Assembly: GCA_947179485.1 (NCBI GenBank)
Contig: OX359247.1
Location: forward strand, 48,953,131 to 49,017,130
DNA from: Allacma fusca
Taxonomy: Eukaryota; Arthropoda; Collembola; Symphypleona; Sminthuridae
Direction of reading: 5' to 3'
Length of the DNA stretch: 64,000 nt
Part shown: piece by piece, positions 3,508 to 61,597 of the stretch
Layout of the letters: every line of letters starts with the position of its first letter
How positions within the stretch are numbered: position 1 is the stretch's first letter
Translations under genes and position numbers: made by a program
The notes under the pieces: model-generated
Told to the model about the DNA's origin: nothing
Databases searched by the model: none
Seen by the model: only the letters and a program-made list of their open reading frames with translations

Positions 3508-5710
3508 ATGGCATTTCTATTTGGAGATAGAAAGTTGTGGTTACTCGTGGTAGTGTTGTGCGTTAGTGAACTTGCGTCATGTGGAAAGATACTTATTCTA
3601 CATCCGCTCTATTCTGGGTCACACGTTCTCACGTTGAGCTCCGTGGCCGAGTCATTGACACAGCGGGGACATCAGATTCATATTGTCAGGTGGAAGGATG
3701 CTCATATCTTTCCAGCCCAAAATAATCCCAACATTACAACCACCACTCTCGCCATGGATAACAGTAATGGCCAGCACGCGTTCCTCACATCCGAAAAACA
3801 GGCTGCTTTTCAGGTACTACTTCTGCAGATAGATACTCATTGTCAGACCTCCTGGTCTTGACGTGCAAATATATGTATATGTATGTATACTTTAACTAAA
3901 GAACTCCATTTACCTCAAAATGGATTTTTCAATCTCCTAGCTATTAAATATTCTATTAAATTGCGAGTTTCAAGGGATATGCATGCATTGTAAGTTGGTT
4001 TGGGTTCATTTCACAGGTGCCATTCGACATCCTCTGGAATTCAGGTTTGAGTGCCAAGGCAATCCTTGATTCTTACCGTGCATTTCCCTTAATGGGAGCT
4101 CATTGTGAGACTCTTCTGGGGAACAAAAGACTATTTCGAGAGCTGCAACAAGAGAAATTCGATCTAGCCATAATTGACATTTTGTATAATGAGTGTGGTC
4201 TCGCTTTATTGCATCAATTACGAATCCCAAGTGTGGGGTACTGGGCATTCCCATTTGCCTCCGGTGAGGCGGACTACACAACAGCATTTCTACCCTCGTC
4301 CCATGTTCCTACTTTTCTGTCCAAGCAATCGGATCAAATGACGTTTTGGCAAAGGCTGTACAATACCTTGTTGAAAGCCGGGAGTCATTTAATTATGTGG
4401 ATTCATTGCTCCATCATTCACCGTGCAGTTCAAAGTCACTACCCCGGATCTCCGCACCCCTTCGATCTTCTCAAAGATATGAACGGCATGTTAATTAACA
4501 CGGATTACTCCCTGGACTATCCTAGACTTCTACCTCCAACCTTCGTCAATGTCGGTGGAATGCAAATCCGCAATCCCAGACCACTTCCAAAGGTAGCCAT
4601 TACAAAACTAATCATCCACTACTATACTAGACTAACCACCTATCTGTAACATGTAAAAAAAACCTCAGTCCTAGTCCTGAAGTATAAACATTTAAAATAT
4701 GTGTGTAATTTCAGGAAATTGAGAGCTGGATGGAAAGTTCGGGTGACCACGGAGTTATTCTTTTTACAATGGGCTTCATCTTCAACCCCAGCATAGTTCC
4801 AAAGAAGCTAATCAATGCATTTATGAAGGCCTTCAGTAGGTTCCCCCAAAAGTTTTTAATGAAATTTGACGGTCATATTGATCACATTCCTGCAAATGTC
4901 AAAGTTCTTAGTTGGATTCCTCAGCAAGATGTTTTGGGTAAATATTCGATCAATATAACCTTTGAATATTACATTAGCTGCGCCTGATTACTAGCCTCGA
5001 AGTAGTAGTACCATAGTTAGATTATTGTATAAACAATCTAAAATTTGTTTCTTTAACTCCCAGCACATTCAAGAACAAAAGTTTTCCTTACACATTGCGG
5101 ACTTCATGGCGTAATGGAGGCAATTTACTACGGAGTTCCAATGGTCGGAATGCCTATATTCATCGATCAAGGAGATGTTCTCATCAAAATGAAGGATAAA
5201 GGCATTGCAGTTGGTTTCCACAAAGAGAACACAACAGCTGAAGAAATTTATGCAGCTTTGAAGGAAGTCATTGATAACCCAAAATACAAGCATAACATTC
5301 AGAGATTATCTCACCTGATGAGAGACGTCAAAGAAAGTCCATTAGAGAGGGCAACGGAACTGCTTGAGTATATAATGAGACACCACGGTGCTGAGCATTT
5401 AAAATTAAGCAGCCGTCATTTGAACTTTTTCCAGTATTTTTGCATCGACACAATATTATTTCTTCTTCTCCTCATCGCAACAGTTTCCTACATTCAATTT
5501 CGTATATGGAAACAAATCTTCCGATTTTTCTGGAACAAATTGTGGGACCTAAAATTTGATCAAAATAAGCAAATCCAATCCCAGATATACCAAAAACTGA
5601 ACAGTATCAATGAGTCTGCGAAAGGAAAAGTGACGGAGAATTTAACTGAATTTTCCTACGGAAGTGTTCATTCTAGAAGGCAATTCTTGCATGAGAGGAA
5701 ACGTCAGTGA
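3508..5710 (+). CDS. UDP-glycosyltransferase (UGT), four exons
   Basis: Exons 3508-3813, 4017-4592, 4715-4937 and 5064-5710 join into 583 residues with consensus GT-AG sites. The enzyme transfers a sugar from a UDP-sugar to small lipophilic acceptors in the ER membrane (family knowledge). Visible features: a hydrophobic signal peptide (about residues 10-25); the likely catalytic His39 in SGSH; the region containing the partner Asp in FDLAIID; WIPQQ at 361-365; and the UGT signature from about 361 to D403-Q404, including THCG (378-381) and EAIYYGVPMVG. A transmembrane helix lies at about 492-514, followed by a basic cytosolic tail of about 70 residues, longer than the usual short tail. THCG replaces the commoner THGG but the family pattern allows Cys there. 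Acceptor substrate cannot be inferred. Arthropod UGTs usually occur in families, and no second copy is present here. Confidence 0.93.
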
Positions 5711-28000: not shown

Positions 28001-28066
28001 GAGACGATGAGTTTGAACAAATGCAGTTTTTAGTGTAATTTAAGATAATTATAGTGAAAAATATTT
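25038..28066. other. LCLAT1 3' region and gene-free stretch
   Basis: AT-rich sequence with possible poly(A) signals for LCLAT1 at 25559-25564 and 25749-25754. No gene, RNA gene or complete transposon was recognised between there and the FAD synthase. The sequence shortly before 28.1 kb presumably includes its promoter and an upstream exon. Confidence 0.4.
25559..25564 (+). terminator. Possible poly(A) signal for LCLAT1
   Basis: AATAAA about 520 bp after the stop codon, within an ATA-rich run. A second AATAAA is at 25749. Which is used cannot be told. Confidence 0.3.
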
Positions 28067-28111
28067 TTGTGGAAAAAAGTAATAAAACTGGACGAATTGT
28101 ATTTCTTTCAG

Positions 28112-28195
28112 AGGTCCATTGGTTCCTGTCAGCAGACTTTTAGAAACAGTCACCTGGGATTATCATACCTTCGAGATCCGAGGCTATTCAAAGAG
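28112..28195 (+). CDS. FLAD1: Probable alternative N-terminal extension of FAD synthase
   Basis: After the acceptor TTTCTTTCAG the frame continues in phase into the 28196 ATG. It encodes about 28 residues rich in Arg, Ser and Leu with few acids, like a mitochondrial targeting segment. The exon holding its start codon was not identified. Human FLAD1 has mitochondrial and cytosolic forms that differ in the same way. Confidence 0.4.
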
Positions 28196-29692
28196 ATGAG
28201 TGCTTGTAAAAATTTGTCCTCAGCTTCCCACAAGCCCAAGACGGCTGGCGTGATAGTCATTGGGGATGAAATATTGAAGGGACAAGTGCTGGACACGAAT
28301 TCTCATTACTTGGCAAAAAAATTGTATTCACTGGGGGTGAGGCTGAAAAGGGTTTCGGTCATTGGAGATTTCAGGGAAGAAATAGCCCAGGAAGTGAAAA
28401 CATTTTCGGAGCAGTTTGACTTTGTATTTACAACTGGAGGGATTGGACCCACGCATGATGACGTTACTTACGCTGGAGTTGCAATGGCTTTTAATGAACA
28501 AGTGACGCGGAATGAGAAGATGATGACCATGATTCAGAAATGGCTGGGCCATAGGGGCTACTCGGAAGACGTAATTATGCGAATGGCAGAGATGCCGTCC
28601 AGTGCTCAATTATTATTTGATCCTCAAGAGCGATCACCATTGTCCAGCTTTCCAATTGTGATTGTACGTAATGTATACGTCTTCCCAGGGATACCAAGGT
28701 TTTTAGAGTCAATGTTTCCTCGAATGGAACCAATTTTAAAAGAGCTGGGCTCAACTTTTTATAGTAACAAAGTATACGTGAATAGGGACGAACTGTCCCT
28801 TACTCCAGAGTTGGATAAAGCAGTGGAGAAATTTAAAGACAGTGTTACCTTTGGCTCGTACCCTGTCATCGGGAATCCTTACTACTCTACGAGATTTACA
28901 CTGGAATCTTCCCAGCCCGGTCATGTAGAGTCGGCCGTGCAATTTCTTCATGAAACATTACCCGAGAATAGTGTCATTGATTTCGATGATCAGCCCTTAG
29001 TTTCTGCTGGTGATAAAGTATACGCTATAGCTGATGACCCGTCTCATTCACTTCATTCTGTTGTACGGCAGGCCGTGGAGATAATCGAAGAATCGCTGGA
29101 GCAATATGGAATTGATGGTGTATGGATTTGCTTTAATGGAGGCAAAGATTGTACTGTTTTACTTCATTTGTTTTATGCAGTCGTAGCTAAGAAATACCCT
29201 CACGCCAAAGACAAATTGAACGGCCTTTGTATCACTATTGACGATCCATTCCTGGAGGTCGAGTCTTTCATGAACGATAGTGCCCAAAAGTATGGATTAA
29301 ATCTTCGAATATTCGAAGGTCCTATAAAAGCCGGGTTGAGCGAGGCTTTGGAGAAGTACCCCGGAATTAGGGCAGTTTTAATGGGAACACGTCGATCAGA
29401 TCCGAGTGGAAAGAATTTAAATTATTTCCAAATGACGGACAGCTCTTGGCCTCAAGCTATGCGAGTTTCTCCGATACTTGAATGGTCTTATCAGGAACTG
29501 TGGAATTTCATAAGGTCTCTGACTCTGCCCTACTGTAAGCTGTATGACCAGGGCTTCACCTCTTTAGGAAGCAAGAGTAACACAGCTCCAAATCCAAAGT
29601 TATTAAGAAATAGTGACCAAAATGGAACAAATAGCTACATGCCAGCTTATAAACTTGAAAATGGAACTACTGAGAGGTCGGGTCGCTGCTGA
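28196..29692 (+). CDS. FLAD1: FAD synthase (MoCF-biosynthesis plus PAPS-reductase domains)
   Basis: One exon encodes 498 residues from the ATG at 28196. The enzyme adenylylates FMN to FAD; the C-terminal PAPS-reductase-like domain is the synthase and the N-terminal MoCF-like domain is associated with FAD hydrolysis (family knowledge). Seen: the MoCF-like domain with GVIVIGDEILKGQ and TTGGIGPTHDD (about residues 17-190), then the synthase domain with FNGGKDC near residue 313, MGTRRSDP, PILEWSYQELW and LGSKSNTAPNP. The tail PAYKLENG is also typical. The frame stays open upstream to 28067 without an ATG and contains a good 3' splice site (TTTCTTTCAG ending at 28111). The upstream reading is basic and Ser/Leu-rich, so a spliced mitochondrial form is likely in addition to the short form. 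Confidence 0.93.
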   Translation: MSACKNLSSASHKPKTAGVIVIGDEILKGQVLDTNSHYLAKKLYSLGVRLKRVSVIGDFREEIAQEVKTFSEQFDFVFTTGGIGPTHDDVTYAGVAMAFNEQVTRNEKMMTMIQKWLGHRGYSEDVIMRMAEMPSSAQLLFDPQERSPLSSFPIVIVRNVYVFPGIPRFLESMFPRMEPILKELGSTFYSNKVYVNRDELSLTPELDKAVEKFKDSVTFGSYPVIGNPYYSTRFTLESSQPGHVESAVQFLHETLPENSVIDFDDQPLVSAGDKVYAIADDPSHSLHSVVRQAVEIIEESLEQYGIDGVWICFNGGKDCTVLLHLFYAVVAKKYPHAKDKLNGLCITIDDPFLEVESFMNDSAQKYGLNLRIFEGPIKAGLSEALEKYPGIRAVLMGTRRSDPSGKNLNYFQMTDSSWPQAMRVSPILEWSYQELWNFIRSLTLPYCKLYDQGFTSLGSKSNTAPNPKLLRNSDQNGTNSYMPAYKLENGTTERSGRC

Positions 29693-30438: not shown

Positions 30439-33400
30439 TCACCCAAACTTTATTTGTTCAACAACTACCGATGTTACTCCTTCCTCTGTATTCCCAGCAT
30501 CATTTGTCAACCCTCCGGCATGAAATTTATCATCATGCTGATCATCATCGGCGGTGTCATGTTCAACTTTTAATATAAAGGATGGAAGCTGTTCCTCATT
30601 ATCGTCGTCATTTTCGTTAGTTTCATTTGTAGTCCCGCCCACTCTTTTTCCGTGTCTATACATGCTGTGACGACACAAACCTTTACGAGTTCTGAATTCC
30701 TCTGGACAATGTTTACATTTGAAAGGTTTCTCTCCTGTGTGAATGAATCTATGACTCCGAAGTTTGAAATCAGATGGAAATTTGGCCTCACAAAATTCAC
30801 AAGAAAATGTAGGATCATGAAGCTCTAAATGTTTTGTTAAGTTTCGCTTCCGTTTGAAACTCTTGCCACAGACATGGCACACGTAAGTAGGTCTATCAGG
30901 TTTATGAATGTATTTATGAGAGTTAAAAGAATCTCTCCTTGAAAATACTTTTCCACAAACGTCGCATATGTAAGATTCGGCTGCGTCTGAAAGAAGAATA
31001 CATTTTAAATTTCAAAATAAATAAAACCTGGATGAATTGAAACAACTGATCCAAAAACTAACCCACACTATTACAATTAATAAATACTAATGAAGCCTCA
31101 CTTACTTATGTGTGTAACTCTTAAATGAGCTAACATTTTCAACTTTCCCTTAGTACTGTACCGGCAAGTCATGCACTTCCATCTTCCCCCAACTACCTCT
31201 ACTCTAAATTCATTAGCGTACAAGAACTGGTTTCCTCAAACCCGCTGTCCACAAATTATGAGAAATTAACATCTTTAACTTGCTAATATTTATTATTAAC
31301 ACATTTGTAATGCAGTCATGTGTTGTATAGACGCATTATCTGTACTTCATTGTCCATGTTTTCTTCCTCTTCTTATTAATATTTGTATTATATTAATATT
31401 GTACTTACGCTTAAAATGAAATTTCCTAACGTGATAAAGAATCTGATGAAAGTCAGGACATTTTTCTAAACAAGAACCACAACTAAATCCATGGTAAGTT
31501 TTTTTGAAGGGGTATCGATTCTTGTACAACCAATGACCCGGGCTTACTTCCTGGTTCATGCTAACATATCTGGAAGACCCTGCATTTACCCATAAGTTTA
31601 AATTACAAGATGTCTAAAATGTTTCTCAAGTCGCATAAATAATTGAATTGCAGATAGGAATACCTTGTCTTTCATTCGCATGGCGGTTGTTGGTTCGTTT
31701 CTCACTGCCACTCGCATTATTCTTAAATTAGAGATTCTATTTAAACAGATGCGTGTATATAATGTTCAATTCGATCATTCAGTAATGTTTTTAAAGCAAG
31801 CATGCAGCGGACTCATTTGATATAGCGTAGATAATTCTTAAGAATAGCCAAAGATATTTGCTTGTCGATGAGTGAACATGGTATTTTCTGAACGACCGAC
31901 CTGGTCATATGACCTCAAAAACTTGTGGCTTACTCTGTAATATGGATTCATTCACTGTCACTACCAATATTACATAATAGCCAATCGCTTTTTATGTCAA
32001 AGTACCTTCAAGTAGATATTTAATTTGATCGGTATCATACTAATCTGGACTAGCAATGTTATTAGTTTCACATGCAAACGTTTGAATGACAGAGAAAATA
32101 ACTGATACAGCAACTATGCCCAACAGCCGTAGTGTTAAAAGTTAGTTTCTTTCGAAGCCCTGTGAAGATGTCTCTCTGCCCTAACCCCAGTTGTCCGATT
32201 TTCTGCGTTTATCCTGTGTTTCTCGTCAATATCAGAGTATAAGTAAAAGCGGAATTTTCCCCCAAAAAAACAAAAATTTGTAGAAGGAAAAACACAAAAC
32301 CAAGAAATGTATAATTTGTCCTGAAATACTTAGAGTAAAAATCTGTAATTTTGGTTTCTTATTTACTTCAAGGGACAACTTCAACTCTAAGAAGCTCAGG
32401 AATATCCTGGTTAAATCGGACTCCTGCCCGGCTGGTATCTGTGTAAAACAGCTCGAGAAAAATGCAAGAATGCATTCAGAGACAGTCTACTAGTTCAGTG
32501 CACATAGCCATACAGTCGAGAGCAAACGTAAATTTAAAACGAATTAGCCTGTTTAGTAGTAATGACCAGTAAGCATGATAGATGAAGGCTCTAATCAAAT
32601 TTGTATTTACCAAGTAAAAATATTTTGATCATTATTATTTTTGTGCCATTCATATGCTGTTCATATGCCACACGAATTTGATATAAAATGTATGAAATAT
32701 TAGGGGAAAATACTTATAACTGCAAACTTGCCGGTACGCATGAAAGTTGTTTTGGCTCAGAAACACTCCAAAATTCAAAATTTGATTCCACAAAATTAAT
32801 ATGCTGGAAGTTTTTAACTTCAAGCTAAATATCTAGAGTTAATAATATATAATACTTTCCATTTGCCTTGTTGGGTAGTCTAAATAAACTATAATAATGC
32901 CAGAACATAAATCCAACTCATTTTGTCATTTTTCTCTCAGCAATTAAAGCAAATTCAAACCAAGAACTTACTCGACTTAGTTGTTACAATCGACATATGA
33001 ATATTCCTTATGTGGACGATGGTTTTTGATTTCACCTTTCGGGAGAAACCACACAGGGAACAAACATATTTACCGTCAACAAGATTAACGTTGTACTTCC
33101 CTCCATACACGAACTTATTTGGTTCAATTTCTGATAGTCTCAAGTTTCTTCTAATGACATTTTTATCTAAAAGTAAAATAGAAGATAAACATTTTCGAAA
33201 AATTAAAAATGGATTACACTTCAGTAAAAAACAATGATGATGTGATAACAACAACTTCAAACAATTTATAATACCAGTAATAACAATAATTATTATTGTA
33301 GCCAGAAAAGCAAAAATTAAGCTTGAGGTTATTTAGGCGTACTGTTGCATCTTGCATCCGTTTGTAGAACGGGTGGGCTTCATTGAATTTAAAAAAATAT

Positions 33401-36400
33401 AGAAATCAAAAGTCAAGCCAAAAACTCCATATCCTGCCCCTTAAAAACCTACCATTATATGTATACACTATAAACCCCTTCCTGTCCGTAACCTCAAAAG
33501 CTTCCCTACTCCTACAAATATTTGAGTACCTTCCACCATTCACTAGATCTGGATACTAGAATACATGACCGAGTCCGTGTAACCGCCAACTCTACATTTT
33601 CTAGTACTGAAGTTGACTCATTTTTACGATTCTAGTGACTTGTTTACAACGTAATTCAAGTTTAAAAATAGTTTATATACTTTTATACAGTTTAAACAAT
33701 GATTATTGGTAGTGCCCAGCAATTTTTATCATATGCATGACGATATAGATCATTACAGAAATAACAACATTTTATACAGGTGTAGGTCAAGGTACCGAAT
33801 TTTTACACGCCCATAATTTGGGTAAAGGCACATGTGTGTACAGGTACAGTGTTTATGGACTCAAGAGAAGCATTATGCAATACTACAAATAATATTTGTA
33901 ATGGCTGGATCATACTTTTCGGCGGCGTTACTAGATTCAATAATTATTCACGATTTGACTTACTCGAGCAATGAAACTTTCTCAAATGGGTAGTCACCCT
34001 TAGAAGATCTGGAAAAGTTCGACCGAAACAGTATTCTCCGCCGCATCTAAAGACGAGTCCGTCTGTTTCAAAAGGAAATTTATCATCGAATAAAAATTTG
34101 CCAGGACTAACTTCTTTGTACCTTGAAAACTTGGAGGGATGGAAACTAGTCTTTTTAACTGTAAAAAAAGATATACATATTATTATTAATATCCGGCACG
34201 AAAACAAACAGAAACTTGAGCTAACGCATCAATATAATTCTATTTTACTTTCATTATTTAGTTGTGCTAGCTATAAGGACCATCGAATCAGATTTGGGTT
34301 TACATTAAAGTAAGAATCTATGCGAGAACCGGAGCACCGCTTTGGATTGGTTCCCGATTCAGAATTTTATTCATTCTGAAATCCTCAGTAAATTAACTGC
34401 ACACATATTCCCCATTAGATTTTGGATTAACTTTTCGGTTTTAAGAATTCGCTTGAGAATTGCGCTCAGCAGTATTGTTCAGCCACAGCAACAGCATTAC
34501 AGAAAACATAAAGAACAATATTAAAAAACTGGGTGGGCATAGCTGATTTTTTCGAGATTTCACTTCTAACTTGAAATGTCAACGATCTATCGAAACTTAA
34601 TCTGATTGTCAAAATACATCCAAATCTGAAAACGATTTAGAGTCCGTGGTATAATTTCTGAAACAAAAATAGCAAGTCGATACCGAAAGTGAAATATAGT
34701 CCAATTTTGGTGCTTTTATAGTTTTAAGATTTGATGAAAGATCATTCGAATTCCTTAAATCCAAATCTGATTCACTTGACTCTACAATCAGTTTTACTTT
34801 CTTCGCTGTTGTCGGTAGTCTAAGAAGAACTGATGTTTACACAAGACTTGTTTTTCTCATGTATAGAATTGTTAGCTAAAAAGTGTATATACTTATGTTA
34901 TTAATAAGTACACACTTTTCAGGAACAAAGCATTAACAAGAACATCAACTAAAGACAGCCTAAACAAAAAACTTACCAGGGGCAACAGCTGTGGTCCCAT
35001 TATCAATATTTTTGGGGGGTTTTGGTGGCAAATTATTAATGTGAACCCTTTTAATATGGTCAATTAGTTTGTATTTGCTTTTCCTGTTGAAACTGCATAA
35101 GGTACAAATGAACCGATCATCAATATTTTCAATTTCGTACTTATTGCCGTAAAGCCACTTCGTTGGAGCAGTCTTGATAAGTCTTCTCCTCATTCTCCCA
35201 GTGGTGCCTAAATAAGAAAGTGAATTACTCTACTATGGTCTGAAAATAACCCCTTTCATCTAAAAGACGCTGTTGAATAGCCCCAACGATTCACCTATTT
35301 TGATATTTTCTTTGGTACTTATAAGCCACAAATTAAAACTAAACTATAACCACATAAAATGAATAACGAGAATATGTCTACCTTATTCTGGTAATTGATT
35401 GTAATTTTAAATAAATGAACTTAATACTTACTTCTGTTATGAATACGAAGGTGCTTGAGAATTCGGCAGTGTATGTTTGTTCTGTATCCACATAGGCTAC
35501 AGAGGTATGTTCCTTCTTTCAATTCGAAATTAAACTTGTCAGCATAACGGAACATACCCGGACTCAATTCAATGTACCTGCCACTTGTTATGCTATTATT
35601 GCGCACCACTTCGTTTTTCTTGTCGGATTGGGTCGTCCTGAACTCTGCATAAAGCCGAGATTTGAAAAAAATACCATTTGTAGTTGCAAACATTTGATCA
35701 ACCCACCATATTTTGTACGTTGTTTACAGTACACGTTTTAAAAATGTACAAATATCCACATTATCTCATATATAGGACAACAAAGCTAATATGATTATGG
35801 CCAGTTAGAAGTATTGTGACGGGTTAGTACTATTGTTTACGGTAGATGTGCAGTGCAGCACATCAATAGTCGGGTTTTTCGATTTTGGTTAACCAAATTT
35901 CGCAGGAATCTGAAGATCCATTTTGGAATAAATTGAATCAAAATAAAACTAAAGGAGGTGACTATGACTGATTTTTTCTTTGTTAATATTCATTAGTAAA
36001 GTTTTCTTTTCTCAATTTATTTTTAACCCTTTTTGTACCTTCTTTTTACGAAACCTGACTTTCTGGGTCGTACCCAGTTTACCATAAAACATACTTTACA
36101 AACCATCACAGTCCTTTTTGGTGGCTCCAATTTCCATATAAAATCCTTGTAAATTAAATCATCCCTTTTGTTAGTTTGCATTTAAAATAATTTTACACAA
36201 AACAGGTCAGAGAAAAGATCTGAAGGTTTTTAAATGTCAACTGACCATTTCATGAACAAGAGAATAATTTAAACACGCTTACGAACAAAATTTTTACTTC
36301 GAAGCTTCTTTGGCTCGGCCCAATCATCGCTATCACTATCAGGTACAGAATCCTCGGAATAATCTTTATCTGTTAATTCTGTGTCGTCGCAAACAGAAAC

Positions 36401-37608
36401 ATGATCTCTGGATAAATCCTCACCGTGGTTCAATTGTTTACTTACCTCCGAATCTGAAAAGATCAAATATTATTTACACTAAACTGTCACAACTCACAGC
36501 CTAATTAATTACCAAATTAGTCCAAAGTTCGAACTTACGGCTAACTGCAATAAAATTATCGCTCTTGCGTTTTGTAGTTAACGTTAACAGATCTATTTCA
36601 TGTTCAGTGGAAGTTATAATGCTTTCCATTTCTCGTGAACCGGCTGTAACAATTGGAGGAGCAATATCGCTATCATCGATTGGTGGAGTTAATTCGCGAT
36701 CTAAATTTTCCTTAATTTCTTCCGTTTCGCCTTCCAAATCTGAAACTATGGACAACAGACACTTAAAAAATATACAATATTTGAAACATACAACGCACTA
36801 GATTTTAAAGACTTGCTACTCTTCGCAGGTGGCTACAGCTACTCAGTCCTCAAGTACCATAATAATAGTACCTTCATTTCCGCTGTAGTTGTCCATACCA
36901 TCTCCACAATTCGCAAGCTGAGAATCACTACATTCCGGTTCTATAACTGCTCCTTCATACGGGGAGACTGATGCTCCAGACAACTGTTTCTTAGGTGGTA
37001 TAACAGTAACGGCAACATCAAAACCTACGAAACAAAGACAATGAGCTCAGAATTATACCGCGTTAAAACATTTAACAATCTTTGACCAAAAACAAAACAA
37101 AAAAATAATGAAGCAAGGGAAAAGATTGCTTACGTCGAAAAATAGAATTTCGCCAAGCGGTAACACACTTATAAACAGATTTGGAGAACTTAATATTTTC
37201 AAGGGTGGATATCTCCGGCTGTGATCCAAATTCGAAATGGATGCCCCGATCATTAGTAAATCGGACACTCCTCGGGTTGCAAAAATCAGTGCCCTTATTC
37301 ATGTGAGTATTTTGTGATTCCATAATTTCAGCCGTGAGTTTCAATTTTATGGAAAAAATTCGTGTGAACATTGCCTGCACTTCTGTATGCAGGGCTTTTA
37401 ATTCTACTAAAGTTATTTTACAAAGGCCACAGAATGGAAATTCCTTTGCCACAACTTCACAGTCCCCTTGAACGTCCATGTACTCGCAAAATGCTTCGAG
37501 GAGGGAGACATTCCGGTTTATAAGAATTTCCGAATCCTGGAAAGGTTCCGCCAAAGGACTAGTACAAACCAAACAGGCAGCACCGAAGGATTCCCTCAGT
37601 TGTGACAT
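30439..37608 (-). CDS. ZAD-like / multi C2H2 zinc-finger protein with six cassette finger exons
   Basis: Eleven exons on the minus strand: 37608-37134, 37024-36872, 36739-36539, 36453-36283, 35644-35432, 35207-34977, 34158-33964, 33166-32972, 31579-31409, 31234-31106 and 30986-30439. Joined they give 893 residues. All ten introns are phase 1 and every internal exon is a multiple of three. Exon 1 has paired CxxC motifs (CLVC near 12-15 and CGLC near 60-63) like the arthropod ZAD dimerisation domain. Exons 2-4 encode an acidic Ser/Thr-rich linker ending in a basic patch. Exons 5-10 each encode one C2H2-type finger with a shared preamble. Exon 11 has four classical fingers (including a HTGEKPF linker) and an acidic tail. 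The product is likely a nuclear DNA-binding regulator; target unknown. Exon 10 (31234-31106) has a weak acceptor. The exon chain is inferred from phase and consensus, so real transcripts may use subsets. Each finger exon, if read through its donor, soon meets a stop. Confidence 0.82.
31106..31579 (-). repeat. Finger exon pair 3 (A3 31579-31409, B3 31234-31106)
   Basis: A3 has EVSPGHWLYKNRYPF and CGSC...HVRKFH. B3 has the shortened preamble NQFLYANEF and CMTC...HLRVTH. B3's acceptor (TTTGAG) has a poor pyrimidine tract, and an in-frame TGA overlaps the acceptor just ahead of the exon, so B3 may be skipped or decaying. Its donor is a good GTAAGTG. Confidence 0.65.
32972..34158 (-). repeat. Finger exon pair 2 (A2 34158-33964, B2 33166-32972)
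   Basis: A2 has the preamble EVSPGKFLFDDKFPF and an unusual finger with four residues between the cysteines (CGGEYC...HLRKFH). B2 has EPNKFVYGGKY and CSLC...HIRNIH. Both exons are 195 nt, phase 1-1. Confidence 0.75.
34878..34919. repeat. Hairpin in the intron between finger exon pairs 1 and 2
   Basis: AAAAGTGTATATACTTAT is followed a few bases later by ATAAGTACACACTTTT, giving a stem of about 16 pairs with one bulge. It could form in the pre-mRNA near the donor at 34976. No function is shown. Confidence 0.45.
34977..35644 (-). repeat. Finger exon pair 1 (A1 35644-35432, B1 35207-34977)
   Basis: First of three A-B exon pairs in the zinc-finger gene. A1 has the preamble ELSPGMFRYADKF and a finger CSLC...HLRIH. 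B1 has APTKWLYGNKY and CTLC...HIKRVH. Each starts after one base of a codon and ends one base into the next. Confidence 0.75.
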
Positions 37609-37820: not shown

Positions 37821-38914
37821 GGGGTGTGCCACAAATGATGTCATGTTTTTTCAGTCTTTTTGTCACCCATCCACTGCTTTGTCATTCCTTGTCATCATTT
37901 ACATATAGGATGGACTCACCCTTGAGGGTGACGTCATGTATTACATTCACTGAATTCAAAAGCAAACGCGCTAATAAGAAATCCCTCAGAAAGGAAGGGT
38001 CTTTACCGAATCGGAATCCACCAGTCTCAAATTCATGGAGTGAAACATTGAAGTTCATTCTCATGTCCAGAGTAGTGGTCCCGGTCTTTCAATTCTGAAT
38101 AAAAAAACTCCATTCGATTCAATTCAATTCAATTCTGATTCATCATTTTTGATTCAATTCAAAACATGAATTAAATCATTTCATTCAATTCAGTTCATGA
38201 ATGAAATCACGCGAAATGCCTTGAATCGCGATTCAAATGATTCACGTGCAACGAATTTGTTTGCATATCCCATTAAAAAATGCAGCTAGTAAAGCATCAC
38301 ATTAAAAAACCCGCACGTGTTTCTGAGAAATTTTTGTTGGAAACCGACTTATCAATTATTTCGTAAATAATAATTTTGTTTGCGTTAAATACATCAATTA
38401 TTATTAATTATTATTAGAGCATTTACTAACGGTCCAATTTAGGCAATAATGGGCCAATTAATTAGCAGGATATGCAACTCGAATTTCCTAATGTTACAGT
38501 CAACGTTACCACCTTTTACTGTCTGAATGATTTGAATCATCATTCGATTCAATTCAGGACGCAAAGATGAATCAAATTGAACCCTGTGAATCGTGAATTG
38601 AATCGAATCATTGTATTTCATTCAATTCATAAGTTGAATTGAATCAAAACGAATTTTTTGAATTGAATTGAAAGATTGGGACCTCTAGTCCAGAGTATCG
38701 TCACACTATATAAAATATAGTGGTTTTTGTACTCGACATTTAAACTTCGCTCCGTGCTCCACGGAATTTTAAGAAATATGTATACTTTATTTTCTCCACT
38801 TTCAACGCATGACGTCAGGACTCAACGCAGGGATCCATCCACTATGTCATTGGCGTCATTCGTTGCTACATCCATGCACCCACATTTTGCATGACATCAT
38901 TTGTGGCACACCCC
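37821..38914. mobile_element. PIF/Harbinger-like MITE, interrupted by a hAT-like element
   Basis: Termini GGGGTGTGCCACAAATGATG and its reverse complement form 25-bp perfect TIRs, flanked by TAA at 37818-37820 and 38915-38917, the 3-bp duplication typical of PIF/Harbinger. Subterminal regions also pair loosely. Removing the nested hAT-like element and one of its duplications leaves about 471 bp. No transposase is visible. The element lies just upstream of the zinc-finger gene start. Confidence 0.8.
38073..38687. mobile_element. hAT-like element with GATTCAATT words, nested
   Basis: The 615-bp element starts TAGTGGTCCC and ends GGGACCTCTA, with a perfect 8-bp duplication GTCCAGAG (38065-38072 and 38688-38695). 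Both ends are filled with GATTCAATTCAATT-type words. No coding capacity. It lies inside the Harbinger-like MITE and so inserted after it. The window's first 109 bases look like a relative. Confidence 0.9.
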
Positions 38915-40021: not shown

Positions 40022-41166
40022 ATGACAATGGACTTCTCGGATAACTTTATCAGCGGTGACGGCCCATTGTCACCGGATGAAGACAATAAATTAACTGTTA
40101 ACTCAGTAAGTGAAACTGTTGGTTAGGGTCTACTGTATGCTGTCTAATCATTGAATCACTTTGTCGCTATTTAGTTTTACTTTTATGATACCCATTGAAC
40201 ATGGAACAGGTGCATCCAAGTTGGAGTATTTTGTTGCTTGGTGTACCTGAAGGAACGTAATTATTTTGTTTTGTAGGAGACGCTATTACAGGCACTTGAG
40301 GAGGTTGTTGGTATGTTTGTCGAAGATGAAGGAGTTTTGATGGTAGCGCAGATGGGAAGGGAACTGAGATATGGAGAATTGGAAGAGATAGGCGTGTTTG
40401 ACGACGTACCTGAGGAATTCCAGGTTGTCAATTCCCCAGGAATGGATATATTTGGCCAACCCGTTACGAAAACGAGCAAAGGCAACTTTGAGTGCGAGTG
40501 CCCTAAATGTAAAAGAACATTAGCAGCAGCCAGATTCGCTCAGCATTTGGAAAAATGCATGGGTATGGGAAGAAACAGCTCCAGAATTGCAAGTCGGAGA
40601 TTGGCTGCGGCTAGTACTAGCAATAATAGTAATGCCAACGCCAATGCGGAAGCTAAAGCGGCATCTCAAGCGAATTCTGCGAGTAGCTCCGCAAGTCAAG
40701 TAGGTTTGGTTAATCACAATATTATGAGCTTTTCATTTGTTTCTAGGATAGTTACAATAATTACCATTGTATTAACTTGGAAATTGCTTGTTTATTAAGC
40801 TCAATGGGGACTTAGGACTTGGAACGGACGATGAACATTTTAGTGATGAGGACGACGAAGACTGGACTATGGAAAAGAAAAAGAAGACAAAAAAGGGTGC
40901 TGAGAAGGGCACACCTAAAAGGTATAGTTAATAAAATTTTTGGTGGGGGGAAGCTTTCGGAGGATTTTAAAACCTTTTAAAATGTGACGTGTTTGCTATT
41001 GCGACTTTACAGAAAAGGGCCTGTGAGTAGACTGAAAAATAACGAAAATGTGAAAAGGAAAACTGGCTCTCCTTCTGTTAGCGTGGCAGCGTCTCCTGTT
41101 TCTAGTGAAGCTTTGTCCAATTCAGAAGATGATTTTAATATGAATGCTCTTTTGCCGCAACCTTAG
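40022..41166 (+). CDS. Sgf11: SAGA-associated factor 11 / ATXN7L3-like, four exons
   Basis: Exons 40022-40105, 40277-40699, 40800-40921 and 41013-41166 give 260 residues. Sgf11 belongs to the deubiquitinase module of the SAGA coactivator, where its zinc finger helps place the module on nucleosomes to remove ubiquitin from H2B. Seen: an N-terminal helix-forming stretch (about 29-60), the conserved PGMDIFGQP (82-90), the Sgf11 zinc finger with C103, C106, H118 and C122, and the following Arg-rich [11 protein letters not shown] (126-136) expected to touch the acidic patch. Then come low-complexity Ala/Asn/Ser, an acidic DDEDW-like patch, a Lys-rich patch and a Ser-rich tail. No SCA7 domain is present, as in fly Sgf11 and unlike vertebrate ATXN7L3. 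Confidence 0.93.
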
Positions 41167-45479: not shown

Positions 45480-47389
45480 TAGTGCTGTAATATTGTTCGC
45501 ATTTTGTTTGTTCTTTTGTTCAGTTCTTGTTTTTTGAACAAAACAAAACAAACAAAATCAGTTTTCGAAAAAACAAAACTAGAACAAAACAAAACCGCGA
45601 TAAGATAAAACAAAACTATAACAAACAAACCACCACAACAGCGGGTAATAACCTTTTCAAACTTTGAGTTTGGAAAAGTGCCCAAAAGTAACATGACCTC
45701 AAATCGACGTGAGTGAGTGACAAATAGATACATGACCTCAAATTGACCTGAGTGAGTGACAAATAGATACATGACCTCAAATTGACCTGAGTGAGTGACA
45801 AATAGATACATGACCTCAAATCGACGTGAGTGAGTCACAAATAGCAACATGACCTCAAATCGACGTGAGTGAGTCACAAATAGCAACATGACCTCAAATT
45901 GACGAATTGACCTGAGTGAGTCACAAATAGATACATGACCTCAAATCGACGTGAGTGAGTCACAAATGGCTACATGACCTCAAATTGACCTGAGTGAGTC
46001 ACCAATAAATACGTGACCTCAAATTGACCTGAGTGAGTCACAAATAGATACATGACCTCAAATTGACCTGATTCGCAAAAAATATCAACATGATTTCAAA
46101 TTCATCTTACAGTATTGAGTCACAGATAGTAACATGACCTCAAATTGACCTCAGTGAGTTACAACAAGTTCCTTGACCTCAAATTGACCTCAGTGGGTCA
46201 CAAGAAATTCCATGACCTTAATTTGGCCTCAATGGGTCACAAGAAATTCCATGACCTTAATTTGACCTCAGTGGGTTACAAGGAGTTCCTCATTTTTCGA
46301 TGGGTCATAAGAACTCCCATGAGCTTAATTTGACCTTTGTGGGTTATTAGTAGACCCATGACCTTACATACACTTTATAATAAATCTCAAATAACATCAT
46401 AATGACCATTAGGAGCTATTGAAGTGCACGGTTTTATTTACATTTATACTTTGAAACGCTGGGCTTAAGTAAGGTCAACAAAATCTTTGCACTATTTACA
46501 GATGTTTAAGGCCAATCTAAAGTTATTGAACAACGCGTAACTTAGAATGCCTACTTGAGGTCAATAGAGTAATTAATTGTTACCTGCTATGACCATAACC
46601 TGTACTGATATTAGATGTTTGGGTACATCGGATATTGTAAATGAGAGCAATTTCTGTTGGACACCAGTAATTACTTATTGTTAGTTGGACAAATGTCACC
46701 TCTACTGCTGAAATTCGATTTTGTTTTGTTGTTTTTAATAAAATGCAGAAGGATGACTTGGATGCTAAATTTTAAACTTGATTTGATCCCAAAATGTTGA
46801 AACTAGTCAGACTGTGAGTAGACAGGATGGCAGAAATAAAAGAGGCCTAAGCAATCCAAAAAAAAAACAATAAAGGTAATTAATTCAATCAAGTCTTCGG
46901 GCGAACCCAAAACGATGCGTATCGGTAGCACTAGGTAAACCCCACCACAATCGTTTGTTCATATATTATGTCTATATATGCGGTCATATCAGGTCTTGTG
47001 GAAGTATGGAATTACACTACACCTTACACTCCTAGAAACTATCAACAGAAGTTTTAATGATTGTATTAAATAAGAGTTGTAAAGCATATCCGCCTAAAAT
47101 TAGTTAAAGCCCGTTTTTTTTGGTTTGAACGTCCTTTGTGAAGGGACCAAATTTACACGAATCAACTTCTATATGCTCTATTACTACTTTACGACAATCA
47201 ATTTCACAAATTTCTAACATCTTCTACATCGGTAGAACAAAACAATATGGATTGTTTTTTGAACAATACGGATTGTTCAAAAAACAAAACAAAACAAAAC
47301 TCGGTGAACAAAACAAAACTCAAATTGTTCTAGTTTTGTTCATTTCCGAAGAGAACAAAACAAAACAAAACGAACAAATTACAGCACTA
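45480..47389. mobile_element. hAT-like element with GAACAAAAC words and an internal minisatellite
   Basis: The 1910-bp element has ends TAGTGCTGTAAT and its reverse complement, and a perfect 8-bp duplication CATGGAAT (45472-45479 and 47390-47397). Both ends are rich in GAACAAAACAAAAC words in direct and inverted orientation. The left half carries a 39-bp minisatellite. No transposase frame was found. Confidence 0.9.
45688..46370. repeat. 39-bp minisatellite (ACATGACCTCAAATTGACCT units)
   Basis: Roughly 15 or more units of about 39 bp containing CATGACCTCAAATTGACCTG followed by AGTGAGTCACAAATAGATA. The first units are nearly identical and later ones diverge steadily towards 46.37 kb. Because 39 is a multiple of three, it creates a repeating 13-residue antisense open frame that is not a gene. 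Confidence 0.9.
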
Positions 47390-54080: not shown

Positions 54081-56213
54081 ATGAAGATACTCACGACCCA
54101 GACTCACTCACCTGCAACCCCCATTACGGTTCTTACTCTGAAAATTTTCAACCACGATCATAACCGGAAGGAAAGTCATATCAAAGTTAGATCAAATCCA
54201 GGATGCGTAAAAGTAATCAAAACAATTACGAGGGAACACACACTGCATACCTATCCTTGGAGGCTCTAAGCTCCCAATTCCCAAAGTAAATGAACATACT
54301 TACCTTACACCCGGTACTGGGTCCGTAAGAAAAAAAAAACTCGCAGAAAAATTACTGATAAGTATATATACCGATCGATTGACTGAAAAGAGGGGAAGCA
54401 ATGGTTCCACACACCCCGAACTATTCCCATCTACCTACTAGTAAACCTCCCGTCTACCGAAGTTTACGCTCGAACTTCGAAAAAAATACTCCAGGAAGTA
54501 AGTGTAGACCCTTGTACTTACTTACGTCGGGGAAAAATCCTTGCGTACTCTCACGTAACAATTTCTCATATACAAGTAAATAAACCACCACGGTGGACAA
54601 TAATACCAATACAGCCCTCCGTTGTTATAGGATGCTAATCTACTCCTACTTCTACTGTATCTACAGTACCGCACGTCACACCGAAACTCCGAACACATTT
54701 ACGAATCATCCCCCATATACTAGGATTCCTAATAATACAAAATCCCATACATTCATCCATAAAAGTCCCACAAGACTTCCCCACAGGTCACGTCTTCCTC
54801 CAGCCCTCATCCCATACTGCTTCACAAACTCATCCAAAAAAAAAAAAAAAAATCCCACAAACATTGCAAAAGTCTCCGTCTGGACTCCGTCTGAGGAAAT
54901 GTGTGTGAATGGGTGAGATATGTCATAAAAAGATTCCTCACAGTATATACGTCAAGACTACTACTCAAGATCAGTCAACACTCGAGACAATGAGATGCTA
55001 CAATGATCATGTCCGTCTCATGAGTGTCTATATCAAGGCCATATATACTAGTCTCTCTCAAGAGTCCAGGAATTATGTATCATCATACTAGTCTGATTCT
55101 GATTGTATCGAAGATAAACATTTTTATTGAAGGAAAGGTGGAAATGCACTCTGGCTTGACGTTGACCGCGGCGGAGGATGACAGCAAGGACTGCAAGCAA
55201 GATCATATAGTTTGTATTGGAATTGCATTTACAGAGGTCTGGTCTGAACTGAGCTATCCATGCAGTGCATATAGACCGACAAAATAACGAGAGCTAAAGC
55301 ATTAAAATGAATTGATTGGTGAGTATTTGTATTGGGTCGTATTTGTATCTATCTATCTATATTGGTATGGGAATTGAGAGATGAGATAAGGCTGCTAGTT
55401 CTACGCTCCGTGTATTATGTATTTAGGGTTAAGTAAGGCTTGAAACGTGAATGGAGGGATAAGGATGTTGGAGTTGTATTTAAAAAGGAGGTGGAGCATG
55501 GGTTGATGCGCACTGGGATCCAAGCTCTGCTCTCAGTCTCAGCCTTTCCATCGTATACCGTGTCGTCGTCGTCGTCACACACACACACATACACACACAG
55601 ACACACACACTCGGTGAGAAGGTTGTTGTGGGAGTTAGGAGAAGAAGAACTCGACTCTGCTCGTCCAGCCCAATGCAATAGCTCCACTCAGCCCTATATA
55701 GTTTGCCTAGTCTCTCCCGTCCCGTTTCCAAACCAGTCGTCATCAGTATTCAATACTTGCCCCTGTGTCCTATACAGCCGCCCGGGAAAGGAAGCACATT
55801 GCCACGCTAAAATCATGTTCGAATTTTTGTAGTTATTTTTTTTTGTTTTATACAAAAAAAAAAATTAAAGGGAAGTCTTGTTCCCACTATACTTTTCATC
55901 AACTCACAAGACACCTTCAGTGTTCCAGTGACCCCACCTTCCAAGGACACACTCATGTCACAGAAGAGTCATCCTTGTGGTTTATAAATTCTTCCAGCAA
56001 GATAAATGCATTCAATTGTTCTTCAGTCGTGTCACTCCATCTGTAATATTATTAAATAGTGGTAATAGGAATAATAGCCTGAAATAATTGTGCTCGCTTT
56101 CCCATATAGCGGTCCTAAATATAATTAAGTATATTGGAGTTGAGAGGAGTTGTTTGATTTTTGGTGGGAAAAATATAGTTACCTAGTTACCCAGTGATCA
56201 ATCAGTTGGAATC
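54081..56213 (+). promoter_or_regulatory. Region upstream of IRF2BP with composition switch
   Basis: From about 54.1 to 55.0 kb the + strand is C/A-rich and G-poor. From about 55.1 kb it becomes G-richer up to the gene. A GTC/CA simple repeat lies at 55562-55610. The stretch probably holds the promoter and 5' UTR of the IRF2BP gene. No TATA box was identified. Confidence 0.3.
55562..55610 (+). repeat. GTC and CA simple repeat
   Basis: GTCGTCGTCGTC followed by CACACACA interrupted by single T and G bases. Open frames on both strands through it are artefacts. Confidence 0.9.
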
Positions 56214-59200
56214 ATGTCGATGGCCAAAAGACAGCACTGTTATTTGTGTGACCTGCCACGGATGCCCTGGGCGATGATCCACGACTTTAGCGAGCCGGTG
56301 TGTCGGGGCTGTGTCAATTATGAAGGGGCGGATAGAATTGAGAATGTTTTGGAGACGGCTCGGAACATGAAGAGGGCCCATCATGCTGCATTCCCGGACA
56401 CGGCCAGTCCCAGCTCCAGGTCAGGGCAGAAGAATGGAGGGATCTTCCATTTACCCCCACCCCATCATCCCCCGCCCCCACCTGTCCATCCCATGTCACA
56501 CTCTCATCACGGTCACCGGATCAGTAGCACCAGTATCGGAGGAGGCAATAGCATCAGCAGCATTCCGCCAGCGACGACAGTCCCCACGTCCCACAGTAAT
56601 ATGACGACAATAACGAGTGAGTTTTTCCTTTTCGTATGAAAGTTGGAGGGGGGGAGGGTTCCTTCCCCTGAGGGTATTGTAGTTGTTTAATTAGTTACTT
56701 GATCTTCACAGTGTTTACCTCTTGCCTAAATTAGATCCTTGCGTTTGGTGTGTGTAACCTTGAGGGGGGGGGCTGTGATTAGGGGATGATACTACTGCTA
56801 CTCCTGCTACTACTAGTTAAGGATACTAGTGAGGTCGCTGTCATACAGTTGGACTGGGAGATGGTTGATATTGACCTTGGTCCTTGGGGCTCCCTGGAGG
56901 GAATTAAGGGTCGTATTTTGGACCCTTGGCAGTTATTGCAATGCTTGTCTGGGAGGCTATTGTGTGTGTGTGAAGTTGGGATATTATCTGGTGGGGATAC
57001 ATTTTTCCGGGTGTCATTGCCATGGTTTAAAGTTTTGAGAGTTGTAGTGGTGTGTGGTATGTAGTGGAGATGATGAGTTTGTGACAGTGAGTTTTTTGTT
57101 TTTGTTCTGATTCTGTGGGAGTATTTTTACTACTTATTCCTTGAGTCGTTGTCTTCGCATTTTTAAAAAGGGAGATAAGGTGGTTGGAAGCAAGGATACT
57201 TACATTTGTGGCTGATAATCCCGTTACGACTGCCTGATAAGGAATGAAAGAACTAATTATATGTAGGGAATGAATCTATTTCTGAGTATAAATGATAAAC
57301 CTTTTGACATTGGTATCTCTCCGTTGAGTTCCGTGGTAGGGATAGCTTATTTTGAGTTCACTCCTAGAATTATGTGTTCATATATACAGATATGTCGGAT
57401 TTAAGGAAGGATTCAGGGGTATATGGAATTTTTAGTATATAATTATTCGTCGTGCCTCATCCGGGGGGACAATAAATCTTTCATTACCTTGGTAGAGAGT
57501 CTGTACACAACCACAATGTACTGACAATTAGTTAAATGAGTCAGGAATATTATTTAAAGACATAGTTTTGCATACTATGTGGGGAGAAGCCCCCTGTCGT
57601 CATTCCAGGTCTAGTAAAAATAGTTTGCTAATTATTGCTATTTTATCCAAGTTCCTTGGCTATGAATGCTAATTTTAAGATGTAATGGTTGTGTCTATCT
57701 CGACTTACTTACTTGTCACTGGAGACTTGTTCGGCTCAGGAACTTAGAAATAAATCCGCATTAGAATTTAAACATTGAGAACTGCGTGCTCACCGACTGG
57801 AAATGTGTTGAGAGCTATGATGATAAGATTTCTTATCCTAAAGGACATGTTTTCCTTACAGGAAATACAAGCGATTTAAGTAGATTCCTTGCAGGTTCAT
57901 GCACATGTAATTATATTTGCGACGGACTTGATATCTACACGTGCATACTGTTCACGTTATGAACAAGAAGTGATTGCGTTTATTAGCATGTTATTAAGCC
58001 CATGGATGGAAGTATCATTTGACAAGCATTTTTCCAATGAGGAACCCGATAAAGGCGCCTGATCATCGACCTCTACCCCAAAGGTATTGGGATGCATCCA
58101 ATGATTTCGTAGACTGGATTAGATCGGAACTAGTTAACTTTGAATAATGGAATTCCAATAATTAAATGAATGTTAAAATTAAAATTGAGGTTTTTTTTTT
58201 CCTTGAGATAAGTGAAACTAACTTGGTACATGTAATGAACGCATCGACTTATTCTACATAAACGTTTTTCAAGTCTACAGTATTAGTTGGTCACTTTTAC
58301 AAGATAAGGATAATGGTTGATGACGATGTGAAATTTTTATCTATCTTTCTCTACGAATAGGCGCTGGTTTATCTTACTTGGAGTGTTTGATAGTCAATTC
58401 TGTTGGATCAGCGCAGTCACAGTTGATTTGATGAGTTTGAAGTCGAGAGGTCAAATATAAACCATACGGTCTCCATGATGAATATGATAATTTTCTGGCC
58501 TACTGCTGTAATCATCAGCTAACATGCTCAAATTCGAGATAATTTTATGTGACTAACCGAAACGTACATTGATAAAATTCTAACTGATATTAAATTTAGA
58601 ATCATGGATCTTGTTCTGTCCACTTGTGTCAAATGTCTATATTTTCATCATTTCTGCAAGCTGTTGGGTTGTGGCCAGTGATTTTATTGCGTGCTGTGTA
58701 TTTTATTTCTGACCTGACTGCAGTAGTAGCAGTTTCCCACCCGTTTAATTTTTCCCTATTACGCTGATGATTTCATTTTACCCATTTTGAGCCGCTACGC
58801 TTTGCGGTGTTAGATTTAAGCTTATATATTGTTACTCGGCTTACTGCTTTAATGTAATAATAATCGTTGTCGTGTTTATGTTCCTTCTGTAATGACTGTC
58901 TACGTCTTTGTCTTTACTGTCATTCATTTAGTGCTGTATTTGAAATAAATGGTTATTTTGGGTAGGATTGTGTAATAATTCTTTCAAATTTACCATGAAT
59001 GAATGTTAATATGAATGCAAGTCCTGGGCCAATGATGTATGAATTTTTTTATGCATAAAACTTTTTCGCACTTTTAAAAGTTTATAGTTTTAGAATCCGA
59101 TCACACTAAGGAAATAACTAACTGAGAGAAGGCTGTCGCCGTTTTAGCTTTTAACAATTGCATTGTGTGTTCTTCCGTTTTATGATTTCCTTCAGGGTCA

Positions 59201-61597
59201 AGCCTGAACTTTCGATGGGCTTCCATGACGTGATTAGATTGTTCGGGACCAATAATTTCGGACGGTTACAAAAGTCTCTTGAAATGGTAGGGTGGATACG
59301 TGCTCACAATAAGTTGTTTTGTGTGAAGTCTGGAATTGATTAGCTAGCCGTATTTTCGAGAATTTCACGTGTAGGACAAAGTAGTAAACGACGTGGTAGT
59401 GGGGTGCGTGTGAATACAGTTTTGGTGGGCTGGTTTATTGATGTTCCATGCATAGTTGATGTGCATGTTGCATGCAAAGTTGATGTTGGCTCCATGTCAC
59501 AGATTATTTGTGTATAGTTTTTTGATAATATGCATGAGAAGTTACCTGTGAAAAAATGCGAGGGTATTCGCTCACTCACTGCATACAACAACATCTATTG
59601 CATGACAGATGACAGCTACAGGGAAGAAAATGATTTACTCCGACGGGATCCGTTCACGAGGATCCGAGCTTTACGAAGAAAATAAAAGTCTCGTGACATG
59701 CCAGCTCCATTGGAAGATTGCATGTGCTGGCAATAGTCAGCATGAATTGTTCACATGCGATCCTCTGAAATAGCTGACTCTCGGTACCCTTTATCTCTCC
59801 GTCTTACAGTTCATTCGGTCCTGTCTATGAGACACGGGGAATGAGAGAAACCATGCAATTCTCATTTCTACTGAATCGCATGGCTTTCCACCGTTTCTTT
59901 GCCTTCCTCATTTTCATTAAGGACTCAATGAAATCCCCTCAAACTTTTTCCTCAGCCATATACATAATTTTGACAAAGCTGCATATATAAACTAAATCGA
60001 CTTTTCGAGTTGATGCCCATTTTCGAACGGGGCTATAACCACATGTGAAAGTCTAGTTTAAATTAATATTCATTTAAGATGCTGGTTTATTAGTTCTTCT
60101 ATAGATGTTGATTCGCCCTCTACTGTAAATAGCCTTTTAAAAGATGAAATAAATGCTATAGGACAACAATTTTTTTGGTACCAACAGATCCCTGATTTTT
60201 ATGACGTTATATGTAAATACACTGCATGAAGATTGAACTTAATTTTAGCGGAATTTTTATGCTTAGACTGAGACAACCGCAATTTCTTTAGTGTTTAGAG
60301 AATTTTCTAATGTTACTTCTTTTGTGAGGTTATTTTTGATAGCTGATAAATAATTACGTAATAAATGAGCACGTTGTTTTTCAGCAGAAGGAAGCTCTCA
60401 AATGTTGTTTCCACCCATGAGGACGGGAGCGGGACTGATGGCGGTAATACCTCAACAGCAAGTACATCAAAGCCAGTCACAATCGCAAGGTCAACAGCAA
60501 GCACAGCAGCAGTCTGCACAGCAACCATCTCATAGTCGGCCTAATTCTCTACCTTCAACACCTATTACTCTGACTGGATTGAAGAGGTTATCCGAGGAAG
60601 ACTCCGATCAGAGCAGCAGTGAATCTAAAAGGTATTCCAAAATAGGCAAATAAATTAACGCCGTACTGTGTAGGGCATTGAGCATATCAGATACAATTGA
60701 AGCATGTGGGGCTCATTGTGAGATAAAATAAATTAGTCTATGAATATAATATTTTGTGTTTGTTTTAAATAAGGGCTGTGTTAGAGGATCAGTCTATTGG
60801 GCGTCCGCCGCTCTCCCGGGGTGAAAGTCTTCCTTCAGGGGCAGAAGCTGTCTTGACTGTTGGCAAGGATAAACCTCATAGAACGTCATCTTTTGATACT
60901 GCCACTTTGTATGCTAAGCAAGGAAACATTACCACAACTAATGGTATGCATTCAATTCTCTTTTGATTATGCTTTCAATTATGATATAAATAGTTGTACT
61001 TTCAAAATTGATAAATAACGACTAATCAGTAATCAGTTCTGATAGTATTAGAAATGTTCGTCAAAATTAGTTAGTCTATTATTTTCCTATAACAGTAAAT
61101 TTTCCAATATTGCAGTGAGTCGTCGTCCATCAGGATCATCATCGAGGCACGGAAGTACTCCACCTAGTTCGGACGGTGACTCGACTTCAAATGCTCTAAA
61201 ATGCACATTATGCCAAGAGAGATTGGAGGATACCCATTTTGTTCAGTGCCCATCTGTTCCAAACCATAAGTTTTGTTTTCCCTGTTCGAGACAGTCAATT
61301 AAAAGACAGGGAGCGGGTTCAGAGGTAAGAAATGCTTTATTTACTTTCATTCCTACTAAAGGGAAAATGAGTTTTAGGATAATTAATTTGATACGTGAGA
61401 TAAGTAGATTGAGTTTGCAATTTTAGCTAGTAGAGAAAAATTAACTAATGTTGTTTTGCAAATTGCAGGTTTACTGTCCGAGTGGAGAGAAATGTCCTTT
61501 AGCCGGGTCAACCGTGCCATGGGCTTTTATGCAGAACGAAATAGCTACTATACTCGGTGAAGATAGTTCAAAAGTCAAGAAAGAGAGAGAGACTTAA
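56214..61597 (+). CDS. IRF2BP: Interferon regulatory factor 2-binding protein homologue, five exons
   Basis: Exons 56214-56616, 60385-60631, 60774-60943, 61116-61324 and 61469-61597 give 385 residues. IRF2BP proteins are nuclear transcriptional corepressors with an N-terminal C4 zinc finger that mediates self-association and a C-terminal RING-like domain that contacts partners. Seen: C9, C12, C30 and C33 in the C4 finger, with [10 protein letters not shown] and [14 protein letters not shown]; a His/Pro-rich and Gln-rich disordered middle (about 70-300); and the C-terminal RING-like domain from about 303 with [35 protein letters not shown] and [14 protein letters not shown]. Both end domains match closely while the middle is much shorter than in vertebrates. 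Intron 1 is 3.8 kb; exon 2 has a tandem CAGCAG acceptor. Confidence 0.95.
56617..60384 (+). other. IRF2BP intron 1
   Basis: 3.8-kb intron, G/T-rich near its start and AT-rich later. No nested gene, transposon with clear ends or RNA gene was recognised. Short frames at 56786-57064 and 59158-59343 look non-coding. Confidence 0.6.

Follow-up and report, generated by a model that had tools for sequence, protein, structure and literature searches.

How should a zinc-finger gene be interpreted when all of its introns interrupt codons at the same place: are its fingers selected by splicing, or has a single exon been copied many times? This question is raised by a predicted C2H2 zinc-finger gene of the collembolan Allacma fusca, found in a 64,000-nucleotide stretch of contig OX359247.1 (C10:48953131-49017130; hereafter the window) and compared here with the rest of the 392.7 Mb assembly (91 contigs). 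The gene is on the minus strand and, as read from the sequence, starts with the ATG at 37608 and finishes with a stop codon whose last base is 30439. In that direction it comprises an exon for a ZAD-like domain, three exons for an acidic linker, five exons encoding one finger each (F1–F5), a damaged sixth finger exon (F6) and a terminal exon with four fingers. We consider it probable that the array arose by tandem duplication of an exon bounded by phase 1 introns on both sides (1-1) in an expanded ZAD-like C2H2 family, and that the default product is one protein that includes F1–F5 and skips F6.

Gene structure and intron phase

Exon 1 (37134..37608) encodes the N-terminal domain, with cysteine pairs C12-x2-C15 and C60-x2-C63, and ends in phase 1 (CGA C followed by GTAAGC). 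It is followed on the same strand by the 1-1 linker exons E2 (36872..37024, 153 nucleotides (nt), 156 nt in the counterpart from a paralogue described below), E3 (36539..36745, 207 nt) and E4 (36283..36453, 171 nt). The single C2H2 finger exons, also 1-1, are F1 (35432..35644, 213 nt), F2 (34977..35207, 231 nt), F3 (33964..34158, 195 nt, with a C-x4-C pair), F4 (32972..33166, 195 nt) and F5 (31409..31579, 171 nt); the largest intron of the gene, 1392 nt, separates the last two (31580..32971). The terminal exon (30439..30986) contains four C2H2 fingers, an acidic tail and the stop. Its fingers form a C-terminal cluster that matches the Pfam zf-C2H2 family (E 2e-17) and are 5–8 residues apart, compared with 36–59 residues for F1–F5. 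The joined frame is open, encoding 895 amino acids (aa) if F6 begins at 31234 and 852 aa without F6. We also note that E3 has two candidate acceptors 6 bases apart (36745 and 36739), both in phase 1, where the choice would add or remove two residues.

When F6 is skipped, all nine introns interrupt a codon between its first and second bases, and the eight exons from E2 to F5 all have lengths that are multiples of three. The original prediction had counted ten phase 1 introns and nine such exons; the tenth intron, between F5 and F6, is possible but weak because the available acceptors score poorly, and F6 supplies a ninth exon, of 129 nt, only with an acceptor ending in GAG. The donors from E1 to F5 read GTAAGT or GTAAGC in eight of nine cases, the exception being E2 (GTACTA). 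The nine acceptors have leave-one-out scores of 0.6–11.3, corresponding to the 89th to 99.8th percentile of AGs in the window. At phase ratios of 5:3:2, ten of ten introns would be in phase 1 with a probability of 6e-6, and if the duplicated finger exons are taken to leave about five independent introns, this value becomes 0.0024. The uniformity of phase exceeds chance in either case.

Each of the 64 possible combinations of finger exons maintains an open frame (with F6 begun at 31234), which is an automatic consequence of the 1-1 phase. The proposal that any subset of finger exons could be joined holds for F1–F5, which are frame-neutral cassettes and have the properties expected for an array of duplicated symmetric exons; F6 looks damaged and belongs to that array only if a weak acceptor is accepted.

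Relationships among the finger exons

Comparison of the exon peptides with tblastn links all six finger exons, directly or via one another, with the best pairs being F2–F4 (9e-14) and F3–F5 (2e-8). The zinc ligands C, C, H and H are the only invariant columns in the six-finger alignment, and homology reaches about 30 residues ahead of the first cysteine, with the consensus SPGKFLYxNKYxFE. The 60 PDB matches listed, of 168, cover only the finger part (profile positions ~27–60), and Pfam matches are weak. A profile built from the six exons recovers those six by construction, and within the window no further exon passes its inclusion threshold. F1–F6 are duplicates of one another. In a tree of 34 modules, F2 and F4 group with their paralogue counterparts (support 0.95 and 0.85), and F3, F5 and the paralogue F3 form a group with support 0.88. 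The array may have grown in part by doubling of a two-exon block, as F2/F4 and F3/F5 alternate in similarity.

Additional exons were considered and rejected. Two stretches picked out by eye as decayed finger exons (36181-36026 and 33555-33409) are absent from tblastn (E<=5) and profile (E<=50) results, and a candidate coding stretch between F2 and F3 (34836-34700) has a most obvious acceptor, again by eye, in phase 2. A match of F2 to intron 5 (z 3.9) is marginal and was not accepted as an exon.

A close paralogue with reciprocal exon decay

A close paralogue is located at C10:48.467-48.471 Mb, ~0.5 Mb from the window gene. The ZAD-like exons match at 44%, and the fingers correspond in the same order: F2 at 61% (54 aa), F3 at 47% (62 aa), F4 at 67% (49 aa) and F6 at 52%. 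All 14 hand-placed boundaries are in phase 1 and all six modeled internal exons are multiples of three, in a model that excludes the linker exon matching E4; the E3 donor, GTATTG, is weak. Sequence searches found no counterpart of F1 in the paralogue. Its F6 has a full N-terminus and the acceptor TTTTTTTCTGCAG. Its F5 has decayed: the nucleotide alignment, which contains small indels, scores 57 where shuffled sequences reach at most 36 (z 11.5), the first cysteine is lost and an AG is still present at the place of the acceptor. Each paralogue has thus lost, or is losing, one finger exon that is intact in the other (F5 there, F6 here). Matches of F6 to two introns of the paralogue (z 4.1 and 4.9, one point over the shuffle maximum) are marginal and were not accepted as exons.

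Approximate ratios of nonsynonymous to synonymous differences per site (pN/pS) between the paralogues are 0.45 for E1, 0.39 for E2, F2 and F3, 0.19 for F4 and 0.30 for F6, with a value of 0.60 (interval 0.36–1.24) for the terminal part. Such ratios indicate that the fingers have been maintained as protein.

The damaged exon F6

F6 (31106..31234, minus strand) retains an intact finger (C-x2-C-x12-H-x4-H), an open frame and a consensus donor, and has lost its N-terminus and a good acceptor. The stop-free phase 1 AGs at 31234, 31201, 31198 and 31192 score -3.4, -8.0, -10.3 and -2.0 (68th, 39th, 26th and 76th percentiles), under all nine acceptors of the window gene (lowest 0.6) and all seven hand-placed acceptors of the paralogue (lowest -0.4), although the margin is small. 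Of the four, a start at 31234 preserves the largest part of the module, but requires the acceptor that ends in GAG. The best-scoring AG near the exon start, at 31203 (2.3), is in phase 2, and a start at ACAG followed by CGGGTTTGAGG (31244) gives an exon of 139 nt that is not a multiple of three and meets an early stop. An in-frame TGA lies two codons ahead of the NQFLY of F6, and the genome search with F4 reports this stop inside its match at 31104-31241. The scores and the comparison with the paralogue speak against a normal acceptor, with the reservation that the scoring matrix is weak.

F6 is probably skipped, with F5 joined in frame to the terminal exon. It is possible that the acceptor was deleted, or that it was kept and 29 nt behind it are missing. 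The exon stayed under constraint over much of the period after the paralogues split, which argues that the damage in the window gene probably came late.

The N-terminal domain and the gene family

Alignment of the first exon with 15 relatives shows that C12, C15, F59, C60 and C63 are invariant and that F57 and P58 are nearly so. Two cysteine pairs ~50 residues apart, as in a ZAD, are thus present in all 16 sequences. F1–F5 lie, as originally proposed, between this ZAD-like N-terminus and the four-finger C-terminus. The alignment contains 16 of 29 matched rows. Of the 13 left out, three repeat places already represented, three are truncated, three are weak and two are near-copies; the last two, L030 7746 (whose repeat in L045 is one of the three repeats) and L036 7480, are distinct and were omitted for no special reason. 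Pfam zf-AD (PF07776) is the commonest match among the aligned members but a weak one, found for 4 of the 16 at E<=1 with a best value of 0.0041. It is not matched in Pfam by the window protein itself, and PDB sequence searches did not find a ZAD. We call the domain ZAD-like on the basis of its sequence pattern, and the predicted protein could dimerize in the manner of ZAD proteins.

The family is large. F4 matches at least 45 places in the genome at E<=1 (among 50 scored candidates), four of them inside the window gene, and E1 matches at least 33 places at E<=10 (of 35), including 11 at E<=0.01 counting itself. Twelve stretches containing relatives were assembled from 16 regions and gave 63 finger-profile rows, some weak; 44 finger modules pass 1e-6, of which 39 are distinct, and the close paralogue contributes four of the 39. 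The best open-frame donor is in phase 1 for 36 of the 39 modules (phase 2 for the other three), versus 174/436 in a control set of 448 open reading frames (ORFs), and the best acceptor is in phase 1 for 29 of 39, versus 151/426 control ORFs. One relative, L034, encodes an acidic stretch and two fingers, with starts 67 residues apart, in one uninterrupted frame of 247 aa, where the profile matches the first finger only weakly (i-E 0.011). This frame is probably a single exon, in which case its two fingers always occur together.

Elsewhere on the contig, three copies of one finger-exon gene are spaced 6.8 kb apart at C10:29.649-29.664 Mb (G000; L024, L025). The finger peptides of the first two copies are identical, and the copies look like a recent tandem gene duplication within the family.

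Duplication and the predicted product

In the explanation we favor, a single symmetric 1-1 finger exon would have been multiplied by tandem exon duplication within the expanded ZAD-like C2H2 family and the duplicates kept in a row, each as an isolated finger, before an ordinary four-finger cluster. The default product would consist of the ZAD-like domain, the acidic linker, the widely spaced F1–F5 and the compact four-finger DNA-binding cluster. Copying a symmetric exon in tandem yields uniform phase whether or not the copies are alternatively spliced. Finger exons could be gained, skipped or lost to decay without wrecking the protein, because skipping preserves the frame, and phase symmetry would matter mainly over evolutionary time. 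All of F1–F5 are presumably included in the main transcript. The predicted protein would be expected to bind DNA, but the 36–59 residue spacing makes it unlikely that F1–F5 act as one continuous DNA-reading array; they may instead serve as contact modules. The reciprocal fates of F5 and F6 in the two paralogues represent birth and death of zinc fingers at the level of exons within a conserved reading frame. Among the titles and abstract openings listed in a non-exhaustive literature survey, none dealt with ZAD genes that carry single-finger 1-1 exons in arrays.

Several observations weigh against the duplication model or loosen its support. The best automatically called acceptor is in phase 0 for 7 and phase 2 for 3 of the 39 family modules. 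The tree places F5, rather than F3, beside the paralogue F3 (support 0.22), and joins F6 to the paralogue F6 with support of just 0.28. Synonymous sites are near saturation (pS >=0.73 in five of seven exons), making the pN/pS values rough. The acceptor matrix is derived from nine sites and discriminates poorly, with paralogue acceptors scoring as low as -0.4. Within the window gene, the lowest leave-one-out acceptor scores belong to F3 and F5 (0.6 and 2.2), as would suit regulated cassettes, and F6, given its open frame, zinc ligands and consensus donor, may be spliced at the acceptor scoring -2.0 or -3.4.

Alternative splicing

The most direct alternative is that F1–F5, together with F6 through its weak acceptor, are regulated cassettes, each independently skipped or included to give many combinations. 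Exons of 171–231 nt with introns of their own, the weaker acceptors at F3, F5 and above all F6, and the 64 open subsets are all compatible with this idea. The open subsets are, however, explained by symmetric phase alone, the donors of the finger exons are consensus sequences, finger order is conserved between the paralogues and L034 encodes two fingers within a single open frame. The last two points fit joint inclusion of the fingers, and we regard independent cassette splicing as unlikely. A broader version, in which phase 1 has been kept across the family because splicing draws on it, generating cassette-type diversity in the number and kind of spaced fingers between tissues in a way unlike lola or Dscam, strikes us as more doubtful still. 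If cassette splicing were true, the family would test whether transcription factors vary their fingers through splicing as well or through duplication alone.

More specialized schemes fare worse. Tandem-duplicated exons of similar length are the usual substrate for Dscam-like mutual exclusion (PMC6071210), and here competing RNA pairings would admit one finger per transcript. The best common pairing for intron 4 has a sum of -97.8, which does not improve on 17 shuffles (mean -101.7), in a test using 40-nt windows and simple shuffles (one shuffle for intron 10). Repeats of at least 20 bases in the gene amount to two two-copy families, neither of which lies ahead of several finger exons, and mutual exclusion appears very improbable. 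We give equally little credence to a lola-like arrangement in which each finger exon ends its own isoform by read-through and intronic polyadenylation. Reading beyond each donor does soon meet a stop, and AATAAA follows F2 (34371) and F5 (31294) and ATTAAA follows F4 (32024), but AATAAA is present in just two of the six following introns, all six finger exons have consensus donors and a common four-finger terminal exon lies downstream. The original suggestion that the locus yields many variants, like insect genes that swap fingers, is left unsupported by an anatomy unlike that of lola, by the lack of a docking signal in intron 4 and by the kept finger order; splicing might still choose freely among the fingers, but no observation here supports it.

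Neighboring features in the window

A 544-codon frame on the plus strand (28058-29692) has Pfam matches to MoCF_biosynth, FLAD1_M and PAPS_reduct, indicating an FAD synthase whose coding frame is uninterrupted; it and the zinc-finger gene lie tail to tail. Upstream of the gene start, the segment 38100-38660 contains many CAATTC-like and GAATTG-like words and a 31-base tandem pair (38148-38209). A 39-base unit (also detected as 78 and 117) is repeated in tandem over 45691-46281, with 12.8 copies in 45691-46203. Other plus-strand frames have Pfam matches to UDP-glucosyltransferase (3960-5710), the Sgf11 domain (40277-40798) and IRF-2BP zinc-finger and C3HC4 domains (56187-56639 and 61052-61426).

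Comparison with known systems

The closest comparison is with the ZAD-C2H2 proteins of arthropods, described in PMC5509000 as having an N-terminal ZAD, a C-terminal C2H2 cluster and clustered, lineage-specific expansion. The window gene shares the two cysteine pairs ~50 residues apart, the C-terminal cluster and the clustered expansion with that account. It differs in that its protein has no zf-AD match and carries extra fingers 36–59 residues apart in separate 1-1 exons, where the N-terminal finger extension is matched neither in Pfam nor among the 60 of 168 PDB matches listed.

Loci of the lola type, with which mod(mdg4), tramtrack, broad and fruitless are grouped, resemble the window gene in having several finger-coding exons behind a shared N-terminal domain at a single locus. 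In Drosophila lola, common N-terminal BTB exons are spliced to alternative C-terminal exons (PMC1947980). The genomic sequence of the window gene instead predicts internal, symmetric finger exons with consensus donors and a shared terminal exon, and none of the 17 Pfam families that are listed for the complete protein is BTB. Arrays of the Dscam1 type likewise contain tandem-duplicated internal exons of similar lengths; unlike these, no docking or selector signal was detected for intron 4 of the window gene.

The ZF271-like/APEZ genes of Hemiptera provide a parallel in another lineage, since PMC6444547 reports lineage-specific C2H2 expansion, tandem clusters and probable pseudogenes. These features are shared with the family described here, but the hemipteran genes are presented there as finger arrays only, with penta-peptide linkers, whereas genes of the window family combine isolated fingers with a ZAD-like domain. 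Finally, metazoan exon shuffling and duplication classically act on symmetric modules of phase 1, and the usual phase ratio is ~5:3:2 (PMC7259759). The 1-1 shuffling described there concerns mainly membrane and secreted proteins, whereas the window gene encodes a putative nuclear zinc-finger protein.

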